Source of the DNA: an uncultured Ramlibacter sp.
GTDB lineage: Bacteria > Pseudomonadota > Gammaproteobacteria > Burkholderiales > Burkholderiaceae_C
Length of the DNA stretch: 64,000 bases
Assembly (NCBI RefSeq): GCF_936925435.1
Contig: NZ_CAKZHQ010000013.1
Coordinates: 1-64,000 of the forward strand
Direction: 5' to 3'
The notes under the pieces were generated by a model. The model saw only the letters and a program-made list of their open reading frames with translations. It searched no databases and had not been told where the DNA came from. The first letter of the stretch is position 1. Every line of letters begins with the position of its first letter. Shown one piece after another: positions 8,517 through 64,000 of this stretch. Both the position numbers and the translations under genes were made by a program.

Positions 8517-9616
8517 GCGATGTCATCGCCGAGGTCCGCGGTCGCGCCGGCCTCATCACCCTGAACCGGCCCAAGGCGCTCAACGCGCTGTCCCTGGCCA
8601 TGGTGCGCGACCTCACTGCGGCCCTGCTGGCCTGGCGCGACGATCCGGCCATCGAGGTGGTGGGCATCCGCGGCATGGGCAAGGACAGCGCCAGCCCCAG
8701 CGGCGCCAGCCCTTTTGGGATGTTCTGCGCCGGTGGCGACATCCGCTTCTTCCACCAGGTGGCGCTGGCCGGCGGCGTGGCGATGGAGGACTTCTTCACC
8801 GAGGAGTACACCCTCAACCACCTGATCCACCACTATCCCAAGCCCTATGTGGGCTTCATGGACGGCATCTGCTTTGGCGGCGGCATGGGCATCACCCAGG
8901 GCGCGGCCCTGCGCATCGTCACCGAACGCACGAAGATGGCCATGCCCGAGACCAACATCGGCCTGTTCCCCGATGTGGGCGGCGGCTATTTCCTCAGCCG
9001 CTGCCCGGGCCGCATCGGTGAGTACCTGGCCCTGACCGGCGAGATGATCGAGGGCCATGACGCGCTGGCCGCCGGCCTGGCCGATCTGCTGCTGGACGCG
9101 GCCCGCCTGCCGGCCGTCTGGGACAGCCTGGCCAGCCAGGGCGCGGCCGCCGTGGCACCGCTGCGGGACCCGGATGCTATGCAATCCATAGCTGAAAAGA
9201 GCCATTTGGCGGGGTCCAGGGGCCAGATTGACCGATTTTTCGGGCTGGACAGCGTGGCTGCGATCGTGGCCGCGCTGGAAGCCGACAGCACGCCCTGGGC
9301 GGAAGCGACCGCGGCCGTGCTGCGCAAGCGTTCGCCCCTGATGCTGCATGTGGTGCTCGAGCAGTTGCGGCGCGGGCGCAGCATGGCCTTGGCCGAGGAC
9401 CTGCGCATGGAGCGCGACATGGTGCGCCACTGCTTCCACCTGCGGCCCGGCACCGCCAGCGATACCGTGGAGGGCATCCGCGCCCTGGCGGTCGACAAGG
9501 ACCACAGCCCGAAGTGGAATCCGCCGCGCATCGAGGACGTGACGCCGGAGATGGTGGCGCCGTTCTTCGCCAGCCCCTGGCCCACGCATGCGCATCCTTT
9601 GCGCATGCTCTCCTGA
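8513..9616 (+). CDS. Enoyl-CoA hydratase/isomerase family protein, 3-hydroxyisobutyryl-CoA hydrolase-like
   Basis: This is a crotonase-fold protein of 367 residues. The segment FCAGGDIRFF, the glycine-rich GICFGGGMGIT and MPETNIGLFPDVGGGYFLSR match the 3-hydroxyisobutyryl-CoA hydrolase (HIBCH) branch better than simple enoyl-CoA hydratases. HIBCH releases 3-hydroxyisobutyrate during valine breakdown. The start at 8513 is preferred over 8498 because AAGAGG sits just upstream and the ATGA overlaps the permease stop. At 9174-9240 the gene contains a reverse copy of a dispersed repeat, read through in frame in a variable region before the C-terminal helical part. It ends 3 bp before the convergent smpB. 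Confidence 0.85.
   Translation: MSDVIAEVRGRAGLITLNRPKALNALSLAMVRDLTAALLAWRDDPAIEVVGIRGMGKDSASPSGASPFGMFCAGGDIRFFHQVALAGGVAMEDFFTEEYTLNHLIHHYPKPYVGFMDGICFGGGMGITQGAALRIVTERTKMAMPETNIGLFPDVGGGYFLSRCPGRIGEYLALTGEMIEGHDALAAGLADLLLDAARLPAVWDSLASQGAAAVAPLRDPDAMQSIAEKSHLAGSRGQIDRFFGLDSVAAIVAALEADSTPWAEATAAVLRKRSPLMLHVVLEQLRRGRSMALAEDLRMERDMVRHCFHLRPGTASDTVEGIRALAVDKDHSPKWNPPRIEDVTPEMVAPFFASPWPTHAHPLRMLS
9174..9240 (-). repeat. Reverse copy of the dispersed Comamonadaceae-type repeat inside the HIBCH-like gene
   Basis: Read on the minus strand this is tcaatctggcccc ... cagctatggattgcatagca, the same arrangement as the copies at 5328 and 18147 (AATCTGGC box, then GCTAT and TAGCA). It is more AT-rich than the surrounding gene and stays open in the crotonase-family reading frame, adding about 22 codons. 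Assignment rests on visual comparison. Confidence 0.45.
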
Positions 9617-9619
9617 AGT

Positions 9620-10093
9620 TCAGCGGTTGCGCGACTTCATCGCGCGCTCGACCTCGCGCTTGCCTTCGCGGTCCTTGATGGTGTCGCGCTTGTCGTGCTC
9701 CGCCTTGCCCTTGGCCAGCGCGAATTCGCATTTGACCTTGCCGGTCTTCCAGTGCAGGTTCAGCGGCACCAGGGTGTAGCCTTTTTGCTCGACCTTGCCG
9801 ATCAGGCGGCGGATCTGCTCCTTGTGCAGCAGCAGCTTCTTGGTGCGGATGGAGTCCGGATTGACATGGGTAGAGGCCGTCTTGAGCGGATTGATCTGGC
9901 AGCCGATGAGAAAGAGCTCGCCATTGCGCACGACGACATACCCATCGGTCAGCTGCACCTTGCCTTCGCGCAGCGCCTTGACCTCCCAGCCCTGCAGCAC
10001 CATGCCGGCCTCGAACTTTTCCTCGAAGAAATAGTTGAAGGCGGCCTTCTTGTTGTCGGCAATGCGGCTGGCGGTTTCGGGTTTCTTGGTCAT
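9620..10093 (-). CDS. smpB: SsrA-binding protein SmpB
   Basis: SmpB binds tmRNA and brings it to stalled ribosomes for trans-translation. The 157-residue product has the family motifs [37 protein letters not shown] and [11 protein letters not shown], and the basic C-terminal tail ([17 protein letters not shown]) that enters the decoding centre. It is divergent from ratA with about 60 bp between starts, a common arrangement in proteobacteria. It is convergent with the preceding gene, with no obvious terminator in the 3-bp gap. Confidence 0.97.
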
Positions 10094-10153
10094 CAGACTA
10101 CAAATGGGGATGTGTTGGTGTCTCTACAATCCCGCGCGGGCCCCGCATTCTCT

Positions 10154-56930: not shown

Positions 56931-58559
<1,629 letters not shown>

Positions 58560-58597: not shown

Positions 58598-59797
58598 CTA
58601 ACTCTCCCGCTGGCTCCCCTCCCCCACCGCGCGGAAATACAGGGTGATCACGGCGCCCTGCCCGACTGTGGACGCCAGTTCGATGCTGCCGCGTATCGAC
58701 TGCATCACGCGGTGGCAAAACATCAGGCCCATGCCGTTGCCGCCGGACTGGCCGCGCGTGGTGACGGGCTCGCGCGTCAGCTTGGCCAGCACCTCGGGCG
58801 CGATGCCGGGCCCGTTGTCCTCGAAGCGGATCCAGGATCGGGCCTGGGCCGCCGGCCCACCCTCCACCCCGACGCTGACACGCAGGCTGGGCTGGAGGGA
58901 CAGCTGGCTGCCGCGCAGCGCCTGCAAAGCGTTCTTGGTCAAGGTGCACAGCACCAGGTACAGCAGATCACGGCGGCCCGGCAGGCTGAAGTCCTGCAGC
59001 ACCTGGCTGCTGACCCAGGAGCGCTCGTTGTCCTCGAACGGAAATTCGTCCAGCAAGCTCGCCACCAGGCTGGAACCGGTGACCGCCTGCGGCGCCGCGC
59101 CCGGGTAGGCGTCACGCGCCGATTGCACGAAGGTCGAGACCAGCGACTGGCAGTACAGGGCGCGGCGCTGGGCCCGCTCCAGCGCCGCCAGCAACTCGCC
59201 GGGATGGTCTTCGGCAAACTGCGCCATGCCTGGCGGCCCGCCATCGCAGGGGCGGTAGCGCTCGGCCACCGTCGTCACGCAGCCGCGCACCGTGGCCAGC
59301 GGCGTGTTCAGTTCGTGCGCCAGGAAGCCCAGCGTCTCTCGCAGCGCCGCCACCCGACCCTCGTTGAGCAGGCGCTCGAAGGCCTGGGTGCGGTGCAGCG
59401 CCAGTGCCTCGCGCAGCGCCTCGCGCGTGAGCGTGTCGTCCAGGGGCTTTTCCAGGATGCGCAGCACCTTGCCCTGGTTGACTGCGGCGATCGCCACCTC
59501 TTTCTCGGCATAGGCGGTGGCCAGCAGGCGCACCAGATGCCGGTAGTCGCGCTGCACGGCGCGCAGCAATTTCATGCCATCCTGCTCGGGCATGCGGTAG
59601 TCGGTGAGCAGCACGGCAAACTCCTGGCCGCGGCCGGCCAGCAGGTCCAGCGCCTCGCCCACGCCGGCGGCGGTGACGATATTGAACTCGTCGCCGAAGT
59701 TGCGGGCAAACCATTTGCGCGAGGCCGCTTCGTCGTCCACGAACAGGATGCTGCGCGCTTCGTCGGACAGGATGGCGGGCGCCTGCGGGTTCTTCAT
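58598..59797 (-). CDS. Receiver-first histidine kinase (ATP-binding response regulator, PhcQ-like layout)
   Basis: This 399-residue protein has an N-terminal receiver domain (about 15-130; acidic pair D21/D22, phosphoacceptor Asp66 in LLTDYRMP, Lys117 in LEKP). A HisKA-like helix follows with His161 in FLAHELNTPLATV, then a HATPase domain with N box TLTKNALQAL, DNGPGI and GGNGMGLMFC. This receiver-plus-kinase order is like PhcQ of Ralstonia. It starts inside the stop of the hybrid kinase gene (ATGA), so the two are translationally coupled. It is probably a phosphorelay output or signal-modulating kinase; no DNA-binding domain is present. Confidence 0.9.
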   Translation of the reverse strand: MKNPQAPAILSDEARSILFVDDEAASRKWFARNFGDEFNIVTAAGVGEALDLLAGRGQEFAVLLTDYRMPEQDGMKLLRAVQRDYRHLVRLLATAYAEKEVAIAAVNQGKVLRILEKPLDDTLTREALREALALHRTQAFERLLNEGRVAALRETLGFLAHELNTPLATVRGCVTTVAERYRPCDGGPPGMAQFAEDHPGELLAALERAQRRALYCQSLVSTFVQSARDAYPGAAPQAVTGSSLVASLLDEFPFEDNERSWVSSQVLQDFSLPGRRDLLYLVLCTLTKNALQALRGSQLSLQPSLRVSVGVEGGPAAQARSWIRFEDNGPGIAPEVLAKLTREPVTTRGQSGGNGMGLMFCHRVMQSIRGSIELASTVGQGAVITLYFRAVGEGSQRES

Positions 59798-62271
59798 GTC
59801 GCCCTGGCCGCCGACTGGGCGGCTGCATAGGCCTGCAGGGCCTGCTCGGTCTGGCCGGCCAACGCCTGGATCTGGCCCACCCAGCCGCTGCGCGGCGGCC
59901 AGCAATGGCCCTCGGCCATGGGCACGTAGAAGCGGCGCACCAGCTGGTACAGGGCGGTGGCGCCGGCCTCGCCGCTCATGCCCAGCAGCGAATGCAAGGT
60001 GTCCAGGCTGCCTTGCAGGTCGCCGTCCGCCACGTTGTGGTCCAGTGTGTCGACCAGGCGGCTGATCTCGGGCAGGTAGTCGGCCAGCAGCTCGTCGAGC
60101 ATGCCGATGCGCCGGTAGCTCTCCAGCCGCTGCGGGTCCAGCACCTGTTCCAGCACCAGCGGGTCGAGCGCGACAGCACTGTGCGCGCTGCCACCCATCA
60201 ACTGCTGCAGCTTGGCATACAGCAGGGCTGCATCCACCGGTTTGGTGATGAAGTCGTTCATGCCCGCGGCCTGGGCGGACTGCACCATGGCCGGGTCGGA
60301 ATGCGCCGTCAGCGCGATGATGGGCAGCTGATGCCAGGGCGCGCCGCTGGCGCGGATGGCCTGGGCCGCGTCCAGGCCCGACAGGCCGGGCATGTTGATG
60401 TCCATCAGCACGGCATCACAGCTGCCGCCCAGTTGCAGATGGTCCAGCACGGCCTGGCCGTGGCCGGCCTCATGGACCTGGGCACCGGCATGGCGCAGAT
60501 AGGCCGCGACCGCCTTGCGGTTGTAGTGGTTGTCGTCGGCCAGCAGGATGTGGCGGCCCGCCAGCAGGCCGGCGCCGCCGCGTTCGGTCGCCACCGGCTG
60601 CATCAGCGCCTGGTGCAGGGCCTGAACCAGCGGCAGCTGCGCGCAGGGCTTGCCGACAAAGGCGTCCATGCCAGCCTTCTGCACCTTGACTTCGGCCAGG
60701 TGGGCCGGCTCGCTGGTGTAGGCGACGATGCGCACGCCGCGGTTGGGCGCCGCCCGGCCGCGGCGCACCGCCTGCGCCACCGCAAAGCCGTCCACCGAGG
60801 GCATGTTCAGGTCCAGCAGGACCAGGTCATAGGGACGCAGCGCCAGCAGTTCCAGCGCCTGCAGGCCGCCGGCCGCCTCGTCGATGACGGCGTCCAGTGT
60901 CTCGAGCTTGTGGCGCGTGGCGCTGCGCTGGATGGCGTCGTCGTCCACCAGCAGCAGGCGCCGTCCGGCGAAAGCGCTGCGCGCCCTGGCCAGAATCGTC
61001 TGCAGATGGGCCTGGCTCTCCTGCAGGCTGATGGGCGGGAAGCGCATGGTGAACTCGGTGTACTGCCCCTGCTCCGCCGCGCAGCTGATCTGCCCCCCGA
61101 AGGCACGCATGACGCGCTGGCAGTACGCCAGGCCCAGGCCGGTGCCGCCGGATTTGCCGACCGAACGGAACGGCTCGAACAGATGGGCCAGCACCTGCGG
61201 CGCCATGCCCGGACCGTTGTCGCGCACCCTGACCTGCTGTGCCTCAATGGTGATGGTGATGCGCGCCTGCGGGTGCGCCGGCAGGTAGTACAGGGCGTTC
61301 TTGAGCAGGTTGAACACCAGGAACAGCCAGGCCGTCTCGTCGCCGCGGAAGCTGAAGTCCTCCAGCACCCGCACGTCGATGCGGGCGCGGTCGTCATCGT
61401 TCTCGTAGCCGTATTCCTGCACCGCCTTGTGGGTGGCCTCGGCCGCCGACAGATAGGCAAAACCCGCCGTGTCCAGCGGCTTGGCATTGACCTCGTCCAG
61501 CGTCATGGCGATCACCTGCAGGCCGCGCCGCACGGCGACCTCGCCATTGGCCAGGTGGCGGTACAGCGCGTTGACCGCGTGCGCCTCGATCGGCCGCGCC
61601 GCCTGGTCAGTGCCGGGCAGGGGCAGGGCCTCCTTCATGCCTTCCAGGCTATGTTTGAGTTGCGACAGCGGATTGCGCATCTCGTGGGCGATGGAGCCGG
61701 CCAGCGCCTGGGTCGCGCGCAGCTTGCGCTCGGCATCGATCTGCTCGGTGGAAAACTTGAACAGGTTGCCGCCCACCGCGATGATCAGGTAGGCGGGCAG
61801 CTGCGCCACCATGTCCATGGGCACCCTGGGGTCCGGGTCGGTCGCCACATAGGCGACGACGGCCAGGCCCGTGCCCAGCGTCAGCATGACGAAGGTGTTG
61901 CGCCAGTCGGTCAGCAGCATGACGAAGCACAGGGTGATGAAGCCGTTGGAAATCGATGCGATACCGCCGCCGCGCTCCAGGCCGTTGAACACTGTGAAGA
62001 ACGGCAGGCAATACAGCATCGCCACATAGGAATAGGCGATGTAGTGGCGCTTCAGGCGGGCGGGCCATTGGTCCTTGAGCGCCAGCAGCAGCATCATCAG
62101 GACCACCAGGCCACGCATGGCGATGTCGTCGAAGGGCTGCGGATTGGGCCGGGTGAAGCGCAGGAAATAAAAGGCCATGAAGGTCAGCATGCCCACAAAG
62201 CCCATGTACTTCAGGCGCGGCGGCCCATAGGCGTGGTACGCGTGGTAATGCTCGAACAGCTTTTTCAGCAT
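59794..62271 (-). CDS. Hybrid sensor histidine kinase with six-TM sensor, two receivers and Hpt (CqsS/PhcS-like)
   Basis: This 825-residue inner-membrane kinase has about six membrane segments (22-171) with almost no periplasmic domain, as in CqsS/LqsS/PhcS sensors of membrane-soluble signals. HisKA has His196 in IAHEMRNPLSQLKHS. The HATPase has FNLLKNALYYL, VRDNGPGM and GGTGLGLAYC. Receiver 1 (435-555) has Asp487 and Lys541; receiver 2 (573-693) has Asp624 and Lys677. The C-terminal Hpt domain has His760 in LHSLLGMSG, where the usual Lys after the His is Leu. The start at 62271 overlaps the acyltransferase stop by 7 bp. Signal identity is unknown. Confidence 0.9.
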   Translation of the reverse strand: MLKKLFEHYHAYHAYGPPRLKYMGFVGMLTFMAFYFLRFTRPNPQPFDDIAMRGLVVLMMLLLALKDQWPARLKRHYIAYSYVAMLYCLPFFTVFNGLERGGGIASISNGFITLCFVMLLTDWRNTFVMLTLGTGLAVVAYVATDPDPRVPMDMVAQLPAYLIIAVGGNLFKFSTEQIDAERKLRATQALAGSIAHEMRNPLSQLKHSLEGMKEALPLPGTDQAARPIEAHAVNALYRHLANGEVAVRRGLQVIAMTLDEVNAKPLDTAGFAYLSAAEATHKAVQEYGYENDDDRARIDVRVLEDFSFRGDETAWLFLVFNLLKNALYYLPAHPQARITITIEAQQVRVRDNGPGMAPQVLAHLFEPFRSVGKSGGTGLGLAYCQRVMRAFGGQISCAAEQGQYTEFTMRFPPISLQESQAHLQTILARARSAFAGRRLLLVDDDAIQRSATRHKLETLDAVIDEAAGGLQALELLALRPYDLVLLDLNMPSVDGFAVAQAVRRGRAAPNRGVRIVAYTSEPAHLAEVKVQKAGMDAFVGKPCAQLPLVQALHQALMQPVATERGGAGLLAGRHILLADDNHYNRKAVAAYLRHAGAQVHEAGHGQAVLDHLQLGGSCDAVLMDINMPGLSGLDAAQAIRASGAPWHQLPIIALTAHSDPAMVQSAQAAGMNDFITKPVDAALLYAKLQQLMGGSAHSAVALDPLVLEQVLDPQRLESYRRIGMLDELLADYLPEISRLVDTLDHNVADGDLQGSLDTLHSLLGMSGEAGATALYQLVRRFYVPMAEGHCWPPRSGWVGQIQALAGQTEQALQAYAAAQSAARAT

Positions 62272-63100
62272 GGCGCATGCTCTGCAACTGCGCCGGCCTG
62301 GCCGGCGCAGTCGGCCAGCGCTGCCGCCGGCTCGCCCAGGCCGCTGGCCAGCCTGCGCTCGGCCTCGTTGCCGGCCACGGCCAGCAGCACCTCGCGGGCC
62401 TGGCCATGGATCAGCGAATAGGCACCATCGGTGTTCTCCCAGGCCTGCTTGACCACCACTGAGAAAGCGAAGCGCCGGTACAGGCGGGCCAGCACCGGCG
62501 TGCAGGAAGCAAAGATGTCCTTGACCTCGGTGTGGCGGATCATGTGCACCAGCGTCAGGCACAGGCAGCGCTTGAGCAGGGAGGGATCTGCACGAAATTG
62601 CGGCGCCAGCACCAGGCGGCCGACCTCCCAGCTGGCCTCACCGTCCAGCGTCATCGGCGGCGGCTGGAGTTCTCCGAGCAACTGCTCGCAGGGCGACAGG
62701 CCCTGGTCCATGGGCAGGACGCGCACGGTGCCCACGAGGGTGCCGCGGAACTCGAAAGCGCCAGTCACACCGTACTCGTCTCTTTTTTTTCGCGGGCGTG
62801 GAAATAGGGATCTGACAATGCGGCGGCCGGCAGCTGGATCGCGCCGCGCAGGGCCCGAACCCGCTCGATGTCCTGGTGCGTCTTCAGGTGGATGAAGCGC
62901 AGCTCCTCCAGGGGGATGTCCTGGCGCTCTTGCGTCTCCTCGGGCGGGGCGGCCCGGTGCAGCATGGACATCGCAAAGCCCGGCACCAGGCCGGATCGCG
63001 ACAAGGCAGACAGCTCCCCGGCGGCCAGCAGCGGTGACACACCACTGGCAAGGTTCGCGGCGATCCCGCGCGGCAAGGACAAGGCCGAAAGATGGCTCAT
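62265..63100 (-). CDS. GNAT-fold acyltransferase resembling autoinducer/N-acyl-amino-acid synthases; frame broken at an A8 run
   Basis: This gene is read in two frames. From the ATG at 63100 (AGGGAG upstream) the first frame gives 111 residues (RFIHLKTHQDIERVRALRGAI ... DPYFHAREKK), then a stop at 62765. The -1 frame continues from the A8 run at 62783-62790 as RDEYGVTGAFEFRGTLVGTVRVLP, WEVGRLVLAPQFR and ARLYRRFAF to a stop at 62265. Joined, they make 278 residues with the layout of FeeM/LuxI-related acyltransferases and of PEP-CTERM-associated acyltransferases. The run contains the slippery heptamer A AAA AAA. Programmed -1 frameshifting, transcript slippage, phase variation, a null mutation or a sequencing error are all possible. 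The gene overlaps the hybrid kinase by 7 bp. Confidence 0.75.
62783..62790 (-). other. A8 homopolymer / slippery site inside the acyltransferase gene
   Basis: On the coding strand the codons are GAA AAA AAA GAG. In the initial frame this offers the heptamer A AAA AAA for a -1 slip. Insertion of one A or removal of two would also restore the frame. The frame upstream of it and the -1 frame downstream of it both look like genuine protein sequence of one family. Confidence 0.8.
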
Positions 63101-63253
63101 GTTTTGATTTCTCCCTGAAATCCTGGCGTCTTGGTGCACTGGCTGCTGCCGGTTTCCGCGCCTGTGCAGGAATTATCTGCATTTGGCCGTCCAGCGCAAC
63201 AGCGCAAGCCCCTGCCCGCCCATGCCTGTGGCTGTCCGGGGACAATGCAAGGC

Positions 63254-64000
63254 ATGCAAGAAGACGTCGCCGCCCTGGAGCGCCCCCTGGACCTGCGCCT
63301 GACCTGGCGCAACAGTTTCGCCGCCCTGGGCCCGGCCTTTTTCACCGAGCTGCAGCCCACGCCCCTGCCCTCGCCCTGGCTGGTGGGGCTGAACCTGCCG
63401 CTGGCCAGCCAGCTGGGCCTGGACGCCGGCCTGCTGGCCAGCCCGTCCGGGGTGCAGGCACTGACCGGCGGCCTGGCGATCGCCGGCACCCGGCCGCTGG
63501 CCAGCGTCTACAGCGGCCACCAGTTCGGCGTCTGGGCCGGCCAGCTGGGCGACGGCCGCGCCATCTTGCTGGGCGAGGCCGACACCCTGGCCGGGCCGCA
63601 GGAGTTCCAGTTCAAGGGCAGCGGCCTGACGCCCTATTCGCGCATGGGCGACGGCCGCGCCGTGCTGCGCTCGAGCATCCGCGAGTACCTGTGCTCCGAG
63701 GCCATGGCCGGCCTGGGCATCCCGACCACCCGGGCCCTGTCGGTCACCGGCTCCGACCAGCCAGTGCGGCGCGAAGAGATCGAGACCGCCGCCGTGGTCG
63801 TGCGGGTGGCGCCCAGCTTCATCCGCTTCGGCCATTTCGAGCATTTCTCGGCGCGTGAGCAATACGGCGAGCTGCGCCTCCTGGCCGACCACGTCATCGA
63901 CCGCTTCTACCCGGCCTGCCGCACCACCGACAAATTCGCCGGCAATGCCTATGCCGCTTTCCTGGAGCAAGTCAGCGAGCGCACAGCGGTGATGGTGGCG
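63254..64000 (+). CDS. selO: Protein adenylyltransferase SelO (YdiU), 5' part
   Basis: SelO is a pseudokinase-fold enzyme that transfers AMP to Ser, Thr or Tyr of target proteins and is linked to redox homeostasis. The 249 residues present show the family start [51 protein letters not shown] and [45 protein letters not shown] (ATP-binding Lys and nucleotide pocket) follow. The gene runs off the right edge. An in-frame ATG at 63245 is an alternative start. It is divergent from the acyltransferase gene, with 153 bp between starts. Confidence 0.95.

Follow-up and report, generated by a model that had tools for sequence, protein, structure and literature searches.

The window, by which we mean the whole 64,000-nucleotide stretch of DNA analysed here, covers positions 1-64000 of contig C13 in a source genome of 4.49 Mb assembled in 57 contigs, and both its coordinates and its sequence confirm the tightly packed set of three leftward genes at 58598-63100 described in the original prediction. 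Read leftward from 63100 on the minus strand, an acyltransferase gene (hereafter, the GNAT gene) is followed by a hybrid kinase (59794..62271), a receiver-kinase (58598..59797), and then a 3-(methylthio)propionyl-CoA ligase (56931..58559, minus strand), which matches NF005426 with 1035 bits against a cut-off of 822 and is probably not part of the module. The ATG of the hybrid kinase (62271) lies within a 7-nt overlap with the acyltransferase stop, and its own stop shares 4 nt (59794-59797) with the start of the receiver-kinase. The promoter scan found no promoters in the operon, and the terminator predictions for it were no better than shuffle level. On the plus strand, a gene at 63191-64000 that we take to be SelO/YdiU-like diverges from the module; 25 of the 41 genus loci carry a relative of it, the distance being variable.

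The acyltransferase had been read as a single open reading frame; instead, the gene is split over two reading frames. The 5' part, in the zero frame (62765..63100, minus strand), runs for 111 codons from the ATG at 63100 to a TGA at 62765, has no Pfam match up to E 1, and ends in a conserved stretch (HLKTHQDIERVRALRGAIQLP...F..REKK). The FeeM/LuxI-like acyltransferase domain lies in the -1 frame (62265..62780, minus strand; 172 codons including the stop at 62265-62267), where the FeeM profile is entered only at its position 39 (profile positions 39-140). The frames join at CGC GAA AAA AAA GAG, within eight A's that belong to the putative slip site GAAAAAAAAGAGAC (62778..62791, minus strand) and appear as a T8 run of the plus strand at 62783-62790; this is the one A8/T8 run of the 64-kb window. 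When the two halves were searched apart in 41 fetched loci, an N-half match was obtained for 25; its frame differs from that of the C half in all of these except L063, which has no run, and L068 (23 of 25). N-parts homologous to that of the window were also recovered, in the zero frame, from 29 named loci.

Special attention was given to the conservation of this junction, for which a census of 59 distinct junctions was compiled, the window's own included. The identical frame break is found in 49 of them, and 48 are letter-identical, with GAAAAAAAAGA before an Asp codon; in the remaining one, from R. ginsenosidimutans, the junction reads GAAAAAAAAAG with the phase unchanged (1/59). Nine further junctions are in frame, have no run, and are continuous across the junction, and that of R. 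montanisoli (L118/G013) combines an A8 run with an unbroken frame (1/59), a state that may be an assembly error; the record has other indels here. Among the 49 shifted loci, the G and the eight A's are invariant, the GA that follows is kept in 48, and the run has exactly eight A's in 48. Downstream of the run, the third codon positions of the -1 frame vary freely (mean 0.49 bit, versus 1.1 and 1.4 at the other two). Such a site is unexpected from the codon use of the kinase genes (HK and RRHK) of the genus loci, where AAA supplies 88 of 1113 Lys codons, AGA 10 of 3868 Arg codons, and GAA 838 of 2868 Glu codons. The junction 14-mer has 38 matches in 37 of the 59 genus genomes, each at the start of a GNAT gene by its coordinates, and the reversed 14-mer, used as a control in the same 59 genomes, has none. 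In 548,274 bases, 39 A8/T8 runs are located at the junction (one of them the G013 variant) and nine elsewhere. It is important to note that eight GNAT matches stand outside the census (G044, two in G014, G004, and the second copies of G022, G054, G023, and G001), and that G044 shows the motif as well; G059 was left out because its frame breaks again downstream, yet its junction also shows the motif. In the 59-junction census, no locus was seen to have its frames joined merely by a change of the run, which suggests selection for the break itself. A conserved slippery run at the frame transition, with both frames conserved, is the arrangement of programmed-frameshift and slippage genes.

The hosts are soil and water bacteria related to Ramlibacter. 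Shifted copies were identified in Ramlibacter, Caenimonas, Polaromonas, Paraburkholderia (four records, one of them Burkholderia sp. H160), and the genera g48, g56, and g134. In our family sample, the GNAT gene is present in 12 of 399 genomes and 7 of 141 genera, in-frame copies included, while in the order sample it was found at E <= 1e-12 in the source genome only (1/399). No relatives on plasmids were found at E <= 1e-5, and the continuous Hydrogenophaga relative L120 has no PHROGs match. A tree of 59 rows, built from the C part, separates a subfamily B of six in-frame rows, which form one clade, from a subfamily A of 53 rows, of which 49 are shifted and four are in frame. These four represent four separate changes, even when only well-supported branches are counted. 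With B as the outgroup, sequence comparison points to a break that was ancestral to subfamily A and has been lost several times. In L120, the in-frame junction GAA AAG AAA CGA GAC encodes E-K-K-R-D, the exact residues that a -1 shift yields in the shifted copies; together with the history of the tree, this indicates that what selection maintains is very probably the junction-spanning protein. Two tandem in-frame GNAT genes of subfamily B, each with its own sensor-type kinase, were observed in R. monticola (L121:6782-7435 and 9436-10143).

A split gene at a nearly unchanging A8 run beside a sensor kinase suggests an enzyme made only upon a slip, and on these comparisons we consider it highly probable that the GNAT gene undergoes programmed recoding. 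A frame break is the usual sign of a pseudogene, and further indels do occur in these genes of G013 (R. montanisoli) and G059 (R. terrae); nevertheless, decay, sequencing error, or assembly artefact is ruled out for practical purposes by the junction census (49 of 59), since letters and phase are the same in 48 distinct junctions from several genera, including the single-contig genomes G055 and G058, both halves are kept as protein, and in-frame copies have arisen on four branches. A split acyltransferase assembled from two separately translated halves is hardly more credible. The -1 frame does extend far upstream in some loci, by as many as 281 codons, and no more than 10 of the 49 lack any ATG, GTG, or TTG up to domain codon 17, but 36 of 49 have no such codon between the upstream stop and the run, that interval is open for at most 12 codons in 14 of 49, the nine run-less relatives are continuous across the junction, and a fixed A8 would be left unexplained. 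Homopolymer runs mutate often, and the run could thus be a DNA-level switch of phase variation in which cells with an altered run make the synthase; this we judge unlikely, given that exactly eight A's are kept in 48 of 49 loci and that no frame-joining change of the run appears in a comparison of one genome per species.

As to the mechanism of the programmed recoding, the frame break and its conservation are observed, and from them we infer the shifting itself, its frequency, and its route. The likeliest route would be slipping of RNA polymerase on the A8 run, resulting in mRNA with an extra A, and a less likely one would be a -1 shift by ribosomes. Without a shift, translation would end soon after the run, where the zero-frame tail measures 3 to 84 codons, and most of the domain would remain unmade. 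As the comparison revealed no conserved stimulator, we somewhat favour RNA-polymerase slippage over ribosomal frameshifting. When the 49 shifted sequences were folded as RNA, with 40 shuffles each, the mean z values were -0.33 (+2..+62), -0.45 (+6..+86), and -0.75 (upstream), and the per-site table of the 49 loci has no conserved Shine-Dalgarno-like letters upstream of the run. On these grounds, the folding being unremarkable on average and no element being conserved upstream, stimulated ribosomal frameshifting was rejected. The same module with a synthase produced by -1 ribosomal frameshifting on A_AAA_AAA is nonetheless a possible, if doubtful, reading of the locus: the phase fits, as the run is read GAA AAA AAA and its -1 re-reading gives the E-K-K-R-D of L120, and some loci fold well, with z < -1.5 in 3 of 49 (+2..+62), in 10 of 49 for the longer downstream window (+6..+86), and in 13 of 49 upstream. 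Apart from the average structure and the per-site table, it has against it that frameshift-prone heptamers without a stimulator reach 2.1-10x a background of ~0.055%, these being general heptamer values for E. coli reported in part of PMC4066793. On the other side, an A8 run appears short for RNA-polymerase slippage, which counts against the slippage reading; the relevant part of PMC1088944 names nine A's as the usual length for selection against slippage, and suggests that eight A's are productive in IS elements of Deinococcus and Nostoc.

The slipping favoured here may also govern translation of the sensor, since in 40 of the 49 shifted loci the kinase gene either overlaps the end of the -1 frame (19 loci) or starts within 50 nt of it (21 loci), the other nine being further away. 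It is tentatively conceivable that slips of RNA polymerase act as a switch of cell-cell signalling, the slipped mRNA giving rise to the synthase and its translationally coupled sensor and the unslipped mRNA to neither. If so, the unslipped mRNA might perhaps end early in the ~0.5 kb that would here be left untranslated, the A8 run would determine how much signal each cell puts out, in rare and digital events, and that run would be held by selection across at least six genera; the same reading would also imply one sensor family that swaps its synthases, with three or more chemistries among them (PLP, KAS III-type, and GNAT).

With regard to the enzyme, the original prediction of a GNAT of the FeeM/LuxI kind holds for the GNAT fold and for the FeeM cut-off, and it is less specific for LuxI, as AHL synthases are among the best matches and ordinary GNATs score alike. 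The C part matches the Pfam FeeM profile (PF21926) with 36.7 bits against a cut-off of 27; of three continuous relatives scanned, one passes (29.0 bits), and L120 has no Pfam match up to E 0.1, so that the apparent similarity to FeeM is weak. The AlphaFold2 model of the naturally continuous L120 has a pLDDT of 83.3, with low confidence at residues 48-53, and its alignment (A4) has only three full-length rows in the N-terminal part. Foldseek searches with this model retrieved GNAT proteins, headed by an uncharacterised Bacillus protein and NcdE, and the 50 best rows include RpaI (rank 3), TofI (13), and LasI (17), at a TM of ~0.5 that ordinary GNATs reach alike; phmmer gave TofI at E 0.014. The exclusion of a PhcB methyltransferase and of a CqsA PLP enzyme was borne out: the gene adjacent to the sensor is a GNAT by fold, and the CqsA-type synthase (NF005526) has no match in the source genome at E <= 1e-60. 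A CqsA-type synthase over the cut-off is encoded in 38 of the 59 genus genomes.

The hybrid kinase (59794..62271, minus strand) has, as predicted, an N-terminal membrane domain of about residues 1-180, followed by HisKA, HATPase, two receivers, and a weak Hpt in the Pfam matches, where HisKA (20.0 bits) and Hpt (22.7 bits) are both below their cut-offs. Its membrane domain (61729..62268, minus strand) was the query for our searches and for an AlphaFold2 model (pLDDT 87.6), which predicts six membrane helices with almost no periplasmic part, the long helices spanning residues 18-39, 49-63, 70-98, 103-119, 122-143, and 157-179. A six-span design is that of CqsS-type sensors, as described in part of PMC4821796. 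Comparison of profiles also assigns the sensor to the CqsS type (hhalign 99.9%, E 6.3e-34, 169 columns), with nine sensors as the reference, eight of them confirmed beside CqsA and the ninth being L147. Seven matches to the sensor were found in the plasmid collection, Vibrio replicons among them. The V. campbellii kinase, 26.9% identical over query residues 12-641, is located beside CqsA, and in both Vibrio loci examined (2/2) the kinase is beside an alpha-hydroxyketone autoinducer synthase that is over the cut-off. In the order, all seven tested neighbours of sensor relatives belong to the CqsA family, these seven having been chosen by their appearance from 16 fetched loci. Other surroundings were observed as well. 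On plasmid 2 of Paraburkholderia caribensis, a CqsS-like kinase (L143:3352-6993; a 38.7% relative) lies directly behind a gene annotated with a 3-oxoacyl-ACP synthase III C-terminal domain, possibly another type of synthase for this sensor family, and at L153:1711-6486 a sensor relative is flanked by a PhyH-type dioxygenase and a 438-aa protein without a clear family. The source genome itself has a further GNAT on contig C8 and a second, weaker CqsS-like kinase of 443 aa (G000:C48:10041-10424; L159), followed by a 325-aa ORF that resembles receiver proteins found beside other such kinases; with a second GNAT and a second sensor, cross-talk is possible.

The pairing of synthase and sensor is consistent with the dedicated module that had been proposed. 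A sensor is found downstream of all 59 GNAT genes (59/59), starting at most 807 nt away, and at E <= 5.2e-20 it is present in 43 of 43 genus genomes with the GNAT gene versus 0 of 17 without it. Weak sensor matches are present in four of these 17 genomes (best 1.3e-6) and absent from the other 13, some of the 17 being incomplete. The N-terminus of the sensor groups with the CqsS type, and the GNAT gene was not found apart from the kinases in relatives. Strong sensors away from any GNAT were identified in G017, G002, G026, and G011. In addition, a haem-oxygenase-type iron-containing redox enzyme is encoded in a subset of loci (tblastn: 9 of the 41 loci from the genus and 11 of the 35 named ones; PF14518 in 4/4 tested). 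In Paraburkholderia and at a few further loci it lies between the GNAT gene and the sensor, and in several Ramlibacter loci just upstream; we speculate that it may modify the GNAT product. Examples of the PF14518 type are L108:7476-8129, L115:7537-8193, and L161:430-1095, the last of these near a GNAT-less sensor.

The third gene (58598..59797, minus strand) encodes, as expected, a receiver-first kinase, which Pfam resolves as receiver-HisKA-HATPase; none of the Pfam matches of the module's proteins is a DNA-binding domain. Its proposed likeness to PhcQ was not upheld. In the part of PMC8578825 that describes these proteins, PhcR has a receiver and kinase domains and PhcQ a receiver only, so the layout is that of PhcR and PhcQ identity is ruled out on layout. 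Of 35 named loci, 23 have the receiver-kinase, eight do not (four from Paraburkholderia, together with L111, L115, L120, and L121), and four end too soon. One relative of the third gene is present on a plasmid, at 39.3%, in Polaromonas naphthalenivorans.

Taken as a whole, the locus is likely to have a signalling role, and the fuller description of it as a small-molecule signalling module, with a GNAT synthase made only by programmed -1 recoding, a CqsS-type sensor, and a PhcR-like relay, is one that we regard as fairly likely. According to this model, the FeeM/LuxI-like GNAT acyltransferase would produce an acylated signal, arising only via programmed -1 recoding at the conserved A8 run inside its domain; the adjacent six-helix hybrid kinase of the CqsS type would detect that signal, and the PhcR-like receiver-kinase would pass the phosphorelay onward. 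The GNAT product, whatever its chemistry, would then be the ligand of the kinase. It is also conceivable, with a rather low probability, that the GNAT product is a lipid or another acylated metabolite to which the neighbouring kinase does not respond. N-acyl amino acids are what FeeM itself produces, as its family name records, and the four genomes named above carry sensors without an adjacent GNAT, but the GNAT gene is strictly paired with a sensor, and relatives of that sensor adjoin other synthases, of the CqsA type in 9 of 9 cases picked by their CqsA-like look and of the KAS III type by annotation. The module is real and the signalling idea is in part right; of greater weight is the conserved break in the reading frame.

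If the model is correct, recoding would control the synthase of a communication signal at a site that is nearly letter-identical across genera, and, judging by genomic pairing, the GNAT would join the synthases seen beside CqsS-type sensors. Such genes would be expected to be flagged as broken by annotation pipelines, and the module may have escaped notice for this reason. Outside mobile elements, the bacterial genes known to use programmed recoding form a limited group. Magnesium chelatase is one of them, according to part of PMC3711429. A search of the open-access full-text literature for a frameshifted signal synthase gave none among the matches listed, and the word autoinducer has no occurrence in the available portions of the recoding papers PMC3711429 and PMC5009743, the latter of which describes a frameshift in an ICE linked to quorum sensing.

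Several known systems resemble the module in part. Like CqsA/CqsS, responsible for CAI-1 in Vibrio, and the related LqsA/LqsS, it places a six-helix membrane kinase beside its own synthase, and its sensor is homologous to CqsS (26.9%; hhalign E 6e-34); it differs in having a GNAT in place of a PLP enzyme, two receivers and a weak Hpt, and a synthase gene in two frames. With phcBSRQ of Ralstonia it shares the order of synthase, sensor kinase, and receiver-kinase of PhcR layout (PMC8578825, in part), whereas PhcB is a methyltransferase and the operon of the window has no PhcQ-like receiver protein. The LuxI AHL synthases and the FeeM N-acyl amino acid synthases share the GNAT fold, as reflected in the Foldseek matches to RpaI, TofI, and LasI and in the passing of the FeeM cut-off by the window protein; identity is only ~14-17%, and the synthase of the module is paired with a membrane kinase and has a split frame. 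As for recoding, msi172/msi171 of the Mesorhizobium loti ICE is likewise a case of programmed frameshifting linked to quorum sensing, although that one, as presented in part of PMC5009743, is a +1 ribosomal frameshift in a regulator of mobile-element excision and not in a synthase. The dnaX gene of Thermus and the IS elements with nine or eight A's, as covered in part of PMC1088944, share the A-run at the frame transition; the shift in dnaX adds a shorter product, whereas here the gene likely encodes a signal synthase and the shift would be needed for its only full-length product.
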